Shown in pieces: positions 11,803 through 13,788 of a stretch of 64,000 bases of DNA (position 1 is its first letter; each line of letters starts with the position of its first letter). Origin of the DNA: Methylotenera sp. (GTDB lineage: Bacteria; Pseudomonadota; Gammaproteobacteria; Burkholderiales; Methylophilaceae). The position numbers and the translations under genes are program-made. The stretch spans positions 1-64,000 of the forward strand of contig JABFSF010000026.1 of the NCBI GenBank assembly GCA_013140755.1. The letters run 5' to 3'. The notes below the pieces were generated by a model, which saw only the letters and a list, made by a program, of their open reading frames with translations, did no database searches and had not been told where the DNA came from.

Positions 11803-11834
11803 CGTAGTGCATGTTGGATAGTTAGTTTCTTTCT

Positions 11835-11930
11835 TGGTTACCGATTGCGCAAACAGCGGTGGAAGGGATAACGCTAATGACAGCAGATGGTATAGTTGCA
11901 CAGTACCAGTTAGCGGTGATTAAGGTTTAG
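11835..11930 (+). pseudogene. C-terminal remnant of a VapC-like PIN-domain toxin gene
   Basis: In-frame translation WLPIAQTAVEGITLMTADGIVAQYQLAVIKV* resembles the VapC C-terminus (LLIAQAxxEGLTLVTxDxxFAxY); in-frame stop just upstream, no start. Confidence 0.6.
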
Positions 11931-11933
11931 TTC

Positions 11934-12560
11934 ATGGTTGAAAATATCCATAATGAATTTATTAAAGTCTTGAAAAAAGATATTAGTAATCGTATAAGCC
12001 ATAACGACTTATCCAGAAAGATATTTTTATCTTATAAAACTGCCGTATTTAAGGATGACCAGGAAACTGAATACAAAATAAAGAGTTGTATTCAAGAGAG
12101 AATAAAAACGCCTTTTTCAAGCATTCAAGTTACGGGCTCATCAAAGACTGGCTTTAGCTTTTTTAACAGAACACTATTTACAATTGGAGTTTCAGATTTA
12201 GACGTATCTATAATAAACCTAGATTTGTATAACTCATATCTTGAAGCCGCACATAAAGAAACAAGAGGATTCACTGATTTAACAAAATTCCCATTATTTA
12301 ATCAAGAGCGCACAGATAAGCAATTTTTGAAAAATTTACAAAAGGGTTTTATAAATCCGTTCTATATGCCAGAGTCTCAATTAAAGAAAAATTGGTTAGG
12401 ATTTTTTAGAGAGATTTCAAATAAGTATACGAATAAATTTGGAAGTATTAATGGAGCTATATATGCTTCGGAATACTTTTTTGAACAAAAGCAAGTTGAA
12501 TGCATAGAGGAATTTGAAAGGAATACAAAAGCATATGATTCGTTATCAGGTAAGGTCTAA
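11934..12560 (+). CDS. Putative nucleotidyltransferase-fold protein of unknown function
   Basis: VTGSSKTGFSFF...GVSDLDVSII resembles a Pol-beta-type NTase signature (hGS...SDhDh); AT-rich, in insert between topA and thiC. Confidence 0.6.
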   Translation: MVENIHNEFIKVLKKDISNRISHNDLSRKIFLSYKTAVFKDDQETEYKIKSCIQERIKTPFSSIQVTGSSKTGFSFFNRTLFTIGVSDLDVSIINLDLYNSYLEAAHKETRGFTDLTKFPLFNQERTDKQFLKNLQKGFINPFYMPESQLKKNWLGFFREISNKYTNKFGSINGAIYASEYFFEQKQVECIEEFERNTKAYDSLSGKV

Positions 12561-13590
12561 GGAACTGATTGATTTAGTTAATGAAATTAAATCAAGAAGG
12601 TTAATAATGTCACCATATTTTCAGCGCCATTTAGTTTGGCGATTAGTTCATAAAGTGGATTTTATTAAAACCATACTTATGGGATTACCATTTCCCCAGA
12701 TTTTTATTGCAAAAGGTAGTATTGATTTGGAAAGTATGACCACTACATCTTGCATCGTAGATGGGCAACAAAGGATGTCTGCAATTGTAGATTTTGTTAG
12801 TGGTGTATTTAAAGTAGATAATAAAGCCTTTAAGGAACTTGCACTTGAAAAGCAGGAAGAGTTTTTAAAATATCAAATCCCAATTATTGATTTGGACTTG
12901 TACAACGATGCACCTGAAATTAAGGAAATATTTCAAAGGCTTAACAGAACATTTTATGCGTTAAACGCAATTGAAAAATTATCAACAGAGTATGCCTCAT
13001 CAGAATTTATGCTTTTTGCAAAACACATTACTGGAGAATTAAAGCTTCAAAATGAAGATGATGAGGATGATTCAAACCTATCACTAGACCCCACAATTCC
13101 TACGGAATTTATAGCATGGGCAAAAGATATAGATGCTCCGAACTTTAAAAAATTAATTATTGAAAGCAACGTATTCACCCCTTATGAAATAAGTAGGCAG
13201 ATACATCTTATGTATGCACTAAACCTTATAGCGACATACATAGGCGGTATTTATACTAGAAACGACCTTGTGACAACTTACCTGGATGATTTCAAAGATT
13301 CTTTGGTTGATAAGGATGCTATTTTAGATAGATTTGAAATTACATCTAAAATAATATTAGCGTTAAATCTTCCCTCGAATTCATATTGGTTTAATAAAGC
13401 TAATATGTTCACTTTATTTTCGTTTATCGCTCAAGAAACTGCATCACAACTACCTGTTGATATGAAGGAACGTTTAACATCTTTTGAAAATGAGACTCCT
13501 CTTGACTATAAAATAGCTGCTAAGGAGGGTGTTAATAATATGAAAGAGCGTAAAACTCGACAGGCCTATCTTGAGAGTTTGTTGAGGTGA
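12535..13590 (+). CDS. DUF262 domain-containing protein (ParB-like/GmrS-like)
   Basis: SPYFQRHLVWRLVHKVDFIKTILMGLPFPQIFI...IVDGQQRMSAIVDFV typical of DUF262; ATG at 12535 (ORF track uses TTG at 12514) overlaps the preceding gene by 26 nt; no C-terminal HNH/DUF1524 motif seen. Confidence 0.85.
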   Translation: MIRYQVRSKELIDLVNEIKSRRLIMSPYFQRHLVWRLVHKVDFIKTILMGLPFPQIFIAKGSIDLESMTTTSCIVDGQQRMSAIVDFVSGVFKVDNKAFKELALEKQEEFLKYQIPIIDLDLYNDAPEIKEIFQRLNRTFYALNAIEKLSTEYASSEFMLFAKHITGELKLQNEDDEDDSNLSLDPTIPTEFIAWAKDIDAPNFKKLIIESNVFTPYEISRQIHLMYALNLIATYIGGIYTRNDLVTTYLDDFKDSLVDKDAILDRFEITSKIILALNLPSNSYWFNKANMFTLFSFIAQETASQLPVDMKERLTSFENETPLDYKIAAKEGVNNMKERKTRQAYLESLLR

Positions 13591-13715
13591 TTGAAAAAGT
13601 TAGTGAAGTGCTGGTCTGACGGATTATCATTTTACAAATATAAAGTTAAAGTTTTGGTTTGTAAGATTGTTGTATTCAATAATATAAATCAATCAGCTAT
13701 TAACTGAACATAAAA

Positions 13716-13745
13716 GAAAAGCCAGCTTGAGAGCTGGCTTTCTTA
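13716..13745. terminator. Bidirectional Rho-independent-like terminator
   Basis: aaaGCCAGCTtgagAGCTGGCttt between convergent DUF262 gene and thiC. Confidence 0.8.
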
Positions 13746-13788
13746 CTAAAAATCACTTAAACCATCCGATCAACCATGAAAAAAGTCG

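Follow-up and report, generated by a model that had tools for sequence, protein, structure and literature searches.

A mobile pair of a nucleotidyltransferase-like gene and a DUF262 gene, probably an overlooked anti-phage system

How do DUF262 proteins that lack a nuclease work? Proteins of this family are common in defence, and their pairing with a nucleotidyltransferase (NTase)-like protein bears on that question. Such a pair lies in a 64,000-nucleotide stretch of Methylotenera sp. contig JABFSF010000026.1 (the window), where an earlier note, made from the sequence alone, had singled out two genes as a possible anti-phage or toxin-antitoxin-like module. The new analysis indicates, from sequence comparison, that the gene pair is probably an overlooked anti-phage system.

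The gene pair and its insertion site

11842–11931, forward strand: C-terminal remnant (30 codons) of a VapC/PIN toxin gene, the left-hand insertion scar, from blastn to intact vapC
11932–13616, no strand: inserted segment with the two-gene cassette, limits inferred from the VapC stop at 11931 and from thiC-flank similarity starting at 13617
11934–12560, forward strand: ORF1, NTase-like partner, 208 aa, belonging to a new family
12135–12158, forward strand: G68-S69-S-K71-T-G73-F-S75 of ORF1, the NTase GS motif, from alignment invariance
12192–12203, forward strand: S87-D88-L-D90 of ORF1, a putative metal-binding DxD, invariant in alignments A2 and A3
12535–13590, forward strand: ORF2, a DUF262 (GmrSD_N, ParB/Srx-fold) protein, 351 aa, PF03235 E 1.5e-18
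12760–12774, forward strand: D76-G-Q-Q-R80 of ORF2, the predicted NTP-binding motif of DUF262, invariant in alignment A4
13718–13741, no strand: bidirectional terminator-like hairpin of the ancestral thiC 3' flank, from its inverted repeat

On recount, the two co-oriented ORFs overlap by exactly 26 nt, as the earlier note had said, and the module is AT-rich, with a GC content of 31.7% against 43.2% for the window, which places it among the window's most AT-rich 1.66-kb stretches. The strings that had been quoted, VTGSSKTGF...GVSDLDVSII from ORF1 and IVDGQQRMSAIVDFV from the DUF262 protein, are both found in the translations. The length of 208 aa for the first ORF holds, and the second, given earlier as 352 aa, measures 351 aa from the ATG behind the RBS-like GAAAGGAA.

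The cassette appears to be a recent insertion; that it is inserted had been proposed, but its site is not the space between topA and thiC but that between the VapC remnant and the thiC 3' flank. On the left, the remnant frame reads LPIAQTAVEGITLMTADGIVAQYQLAVIKV*, with its stop at 11931, and matches the intact vapC next to thiC in the same-genus loci L093 (blastn E 2e-8) and L095; intact vapBC adjoins thiC in the same-genus genomes G047 and G011. In L095, thiC is 138 bp away from the VapC stop; in the window, the distance is 1858 bp. On the right, same-genus genomes without the module carry a thiC flank that matches the window from 13617 rightwards, and in both L104 and L105 (genomes G050 and G018) the similarity starts at precisely this position. 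The end of the remnant at 11931 and the start of the flank at 13617 thus delimit the inserted DNA to about 11932–13616, essentially only the two genes. The supposed bidirectional terminator of the module is indeed an inverted repeat (AAAGCCAGCT-TGAG-AGCTGGCTTT, 13718–13741), but it is assigned to the thiC 3' flank, because module-less same-genus thiC flanks share the stretch (13717–13748 recurs in those of L111 and L116).

In none of the 29 relatives with thiC loci examined does topA lie within 1.5 kb of thiC, and other genes come after topA in the relatives with a readable topA flank. The topA–thiC arrangement was therefore dropped as the ancestral empty site; since the two genes lie apart in the relatives checked, their proximity is peculiar to this genome or assembly. 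What relatives carry 3' of thiC varies (vapBC, a DoxX-like gene and others), and the place may be an integration spot.

Among 187 genomes from the host's family, a profile HMM of ORF1 found the gene in one, the host's own. Matches to an ORF1 sequence pattern, in turn, span Cyanobacteria, Bacteroidota, Actinomycetota, Bacillota, Poribacteria and one Lokiarchaeota MAG. The Cronobacter carrier is a small plasmid, and the Pseudoalteromonas replicon pTHAF3_a also bears the pair; in two viral contigs it adjoins tail-type genes of a P2-like phage (tail genes named by eye), and in E. coli ETEC1738 an IS element flanks it on one side and late genes of lambdoid type on the other. Of 5426 E. coli genomes, 3 carry the pair in a lambdoid prophage; a homologous prophage pair occupies 8005–9650 of L090. 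With its occurrence on plasmids, in prophages and in phage-like contigs, the distribution is accessory, in line with what the earlier note had envisaged, and mobile.

Two protein families that travel together

The first relatives came from protein searches, which yielded pairs on the Cronobacter plasmid pA84-3, on pTHAF3_a and in two more Pseudomonadota genomes, all with the NTase-like gene directly 5' of DUF262. The family is too diverged for single-protein scans, which recovered nothing from genome contigs or from viral contigs. Later relatives were found with a degenerate DNA pattern for GSAKxG[FY]S-13aa-SDxD, a codon-level motif chosen because alignment A2 (ORF1-family sequences found without the pattern) holds no sufficiently conserved stretch; built from ORF1 relatives alone, the pattern carries zero DUF262 information. 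It matched in 52 genome and 4 viral contigs, and all 56 matches are in-frame family members. A DUF262 gene follows directly 3' on the same strand in 38 of the 46 genome loci with at least 600 bp downstream, at gaps of −157 to +36 and usually overlapping; in all four viral contigs, too, it lies directly downstream. The eight genome exceptions comprise L080 (a truncated gene) and L048 (cut at the 5' end by the locus boundary); the others belong to two further subfamilies, which have partners of another kind. Because NTase and DUF262 sequence distances correlate strongly (Mantel r 0.85, 42 pairs, 0/10000 permutations), the two genes are seen to travel together, with shared species history possibly adding to the correlation. 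Homologous co-oriented pairs thus recur in dozens of species, beyond chance, which substantiates the conserved pairing for which a survey had been proposed.

The identification of ORF2 as a DUF262 protein is firm, with a PF03235 score of 68.1 bits (cut-off 33.2; E 1.5e-18). Its best PADLOC match is NsnA (2e-19), followed by PD-T4-2_A (5.5e-12, residues 12–90, partial coverage), and all 33 aligned DUF262 partners match both models. Q30-R31, D76-R80 (DGQQR) and F133 and N137 (FxxxN) are invariant in alignment A4, and for DGQQR a role in NTP binding is predicted on the basis of PMC10952713 and PMC12137116. The AF2 model of ORF2 (pLDDT 87.8) has BrxU (Foldseek probability 1.00), ParB-N and sulfiredoxin as top structural matches, in agreement with the ParB/Srx-type fold that had been predicted; a BFVD search gave no useful match. 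The window copy groups with L027 (support 100/100) on a long branch of the DUF262 tree. As to whether NTase-linked DUF262 proteins form one clade with a single origin, the best tree has three changes, and one is also compatible. A Cytobacillus locus (L087, 40–6959) carries three DUF262 genes close to one another (617, 445 and 349 aa), the last of them paired with an NTase gene.

ORF1 is recognised by none of the Pfam, NCBIfam and PADLOC models, HEPN models do not match it, and the PDB sequences hold no match of weight. The match to 7mcd, a designed protein (E 1e-4), was set aside as chance, with no stretch passing alone, and those to PF18659 CelTOS and DUF6559 fall below the cut-off. What defines the family is an invariant signature, GS..K.G..SD.D, that is, the pol-beta G[S/G] motif followed by DxD: G68, S69, S87, D88 and D90 are invariant already in A2, and alignment A3, whose conservation is largely imposed by the pattern, adds K71 and G73. 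Below-threshold matches to PF01909 occur in 11 of 42 family members (best 0.0058) and to Polbeta in 7 of 42. In the AF2 model (pLDDT 88, pTM 0.83), which is not an all-helical bundle, GS stands behind one strand and DxD opens the next. Against the PDB, none of the Foldseek matches is significant (E of at least 1, probability at most 0.2); of the 50 matches listed, 30 are pol-beta NTases (Cid1, CutA, TUT4, PAP, cGAS and CCA enzymes); hhalign to MNTs covers 25 columns, the GS..DxD motif only. No further conserved acid that could serve as third catalytic carboxylate appears in the family alignment; ORF1 has F143 in a column that is acidic in 71% of the family. The earlier expectation of an NTase fold with intact catalytic carboxylates therefore survives in part: GS and D.D are invariant and the fold has moderate support, but the third carboxylate is not conserved. 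With moderate confidence, motif and model point to a divergent pol-beta-type NTase fold with putative catalysis.

The ORF1 family also occurs in other settings. In L030 (2250–3504), L038 (3436–4687) and L047 (5485–6736), from Aliarcobacter and Bacteroidales, a family member overlaps the gene upstream of it, which is GT51 transglycosylase-like (PF00912 E 1.6e-31 in L038); DUF262 is absent from this second conserved pairing. At L073 (1–5907), a 265-aa relative has on one side an ORF whose TDPPYY motif is methyltransferase-like, overlapping it by 4 nt, and on the other a DUF499 ATPase (PF04465, 1e-11); this relative is possibly an extra component of DUF499 BREX-related systems (PMC12839542). Similarly long relatives are found at L041 (near HsdM), L078 and L089. 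Profile matches in Cas3-like ORFs (L028, L029) are false positives; the ORF of L029 (955–3333, host contig C149) is a Cas3-like helicase related to one in G351 and suggests that the host genome has a type I CRISPR system at another site.

DUF262 partners and known systems

As the earlier note had observed, neither ORF matches the DUF1524 HNH nuclease. DUF262 systems without DUF1524 that are already in print are PD-T4-2, Menshen and Dazbog, and in Menshen and Dazbog defence was lost when the DUF262 gene was deleted or mutated, according to PMC10952713, which also attributes NTPase activity and DNA sensing to GmrSD, BrxU and SspE. PD-T4-2 (DUF262 plus HEPN) shares the two-gene layout and the PD-T4-2_A-type DUF262, but its HEPN partner, which lies 3' of DUF262 in the loci examined, is replaced in the window by an NTase-like gene on the 5' side, so the pair is not a PD-T4-2 member. 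Menshen (NsnABC; DUF262 plus a predicted OLD nuclease) supplies the best PADLOC model for ORF2, yet the window has two genes only, with neither DUF3696/OLD nor a third gene, and the pair likewise falls outside that system. The type IV enzymes GmrSD, BrxU and SspE share QR, DGQQR and FxxxN with ORF2; GmrSD membership was rejected in view of a DUF1524 HNH that is neither fused nor adjacent, the neighbouring genes being topA and thiC, and the output would fall to ORF1 instead. With MNT/HEPN and MenAT, ORF1 shares the GS..DxD pol-beta signature and the setting of an NTase in a two-gene module, but the partner is DUF262 rather than HEPN, which excludes HEPN-MNT membership, the third acid is unconserved and the sequence similarity, measured against MNTs, spans 25 columns. 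A DUF262–NTase pairing was not found described in a full-text literature search that mostly excluded subscription papers and preprints, and its novelty is provisional.

Elsewhere, DUF262-only proteins have HEPN, DUF3696/OLD, protein kinase or EcoRI-type methyltransferase partners; because the paired genes differ, the DUF262 partner behaves like an exchangeable effector. Two Asticcacaulis plasmids (L020, 3001–6216; L165, 2465–5471) carry a DUF262–kinase pair followed by an opposite-strand gene of the phosphoadenosine phosphosulfate reductase family, and on Pseudarthrobacter and Pediococcus plasmids (L166, 1209–3577; L167, 1224–3574) an EcoRI-family adenine methyltransferase gene has a 4-nt overlap with DUF262. 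At L007 (1093–3200), DUF262 overlaps an upstream 352-aa ORF that is SIR2-like by eye and has no Pfam match. Within the pair loci, one DUF262 clade (L043, L057, L060, L077 and L082; support 100/100) stands out with an N6/N4 DNA methyltransferase close to 5 of 5 members, belonging to PF01555 in L043 and L057 and varying in position and orientation; none was found near the pair at the other pair loci, including the window. Because this clade always has the methyltransferase, the sequences suggest that DUF262 reads DNA modification, with the NTase as output.

Proposed function and rival explanations

The locus is best explained as a variation on the layout in which DUF262 is combined with a partner, HEPN in PD-T4-2 and OLD in Menshen. 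Specifically, we give about an even chance to a mobile two-gene anti-phage module in which a DUF262 sensor and switch controls an NTase effector, with sensing, catalysis, effector role and defence all inferred. ORF2, a ParB/Srx-type NTPase, would recognise invading, probably modification-marked, DNA and as a switch would gate ORF1; the latter, as a divergent pol-beta-type NTase, would be the effector and would most likely halt infection through nucleotidylation of a molecule of the host or the phage, be it a tRNA, the nucleotide pool or a protein. Several points speak against this effector model. The NTase reading of ORF1 draws on a motif and a weak structural likeness (Foldseek E of about 1), and the third acid is not conserved; HEPN-MNT, the closest analogy in the literature, uses its NTase as antitoxin (PMC3710099), MNT being proposed to nucleotidylate HEPN toxins; and the methyltransferase association is confined to one clade that does not include the window. 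The stronger proposal, a distinct modification-sensing defence class with a DUF262 sensor, an optional self-marking methyltransferase and a new NTase family as effector that nucleotidylates instead of cleaving, is possible, but we lean against it.

The roles could also be reversed, with ORF1 as antitoxin or regulator (for instance by nucleotidylating ORF2) and DUF262 as toxic nuclease or NTPase. This is unlikely in our estimate, even if the NTase gene almost always comes first, usually overlapping DUF262, an order typical of antitoxin-toxin and MNT-HEPN pairs (PMC3710099), ParB/Srx members can nick DNA (PMC12839542), and the cassette has replaced or interrupted a vapC locus: the likeness of ORF1 to MNTs is confined to GS..DxD, the DUF262 two-gene layout persists with effector-looking partners (HEPN, DUF3696, kinase), and the DNA methyltransferase of one clade better fits restriction-type logic. 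Just as improbable is a catalytically dead NTase fold that binds nucleotides or nucleic acids as a recognition or specificity subunit and leaves the effector role, through NTP depletion or nicking, to DUF262. The unconserved third carboxylate, the weak fold similarity and the ORF1 relatives in restriction-like loci without DUF262 (the TDPPYY ORF and DUF499 ATPase of L073; HsdM at L041) are consistent with such a subunit, but even very divergent members, pattern-independent ones among them, all keep G68, S69, D88 and D90, whereas one would expect the metal-binding DxD to disappear from a dead fold.

Least probable of all is a role outside defence, as a mobile-element maintenance or host-regulatory pair carried as cargo. 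Small plasmids and prophages as carriers would suit it; against it stand the sequence kinship of DUF262 to tested defence proteins and a survey of 80 neighbouring proteins, made without a control set, that turned up AbiEii, a CBASS cyclase, a type IV REase and five methyltransferases, with PADLOC models (MTase_II among them) matching some of these neighbours.

Taken together, the NTase pairing, found in many bacterial phyla, a Lokiarchaeota MAG, prophages and plasmids, widens the range of exchangeable DUF262 partners to HEPN, OLD, kinase and NTase. The methyltransferase clade points to a way, open to experiment, in which the sensing of DNA modification could lead to nucleotidyl transfer, and the intact prophage copies in E. 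coli make the pair testable in laboratory strains. If the proposed mechanism is true, these modules would form a distinct class, restriction-like in recognition, in which the outcome would be nucleotidylation rather than DNA cleavage.
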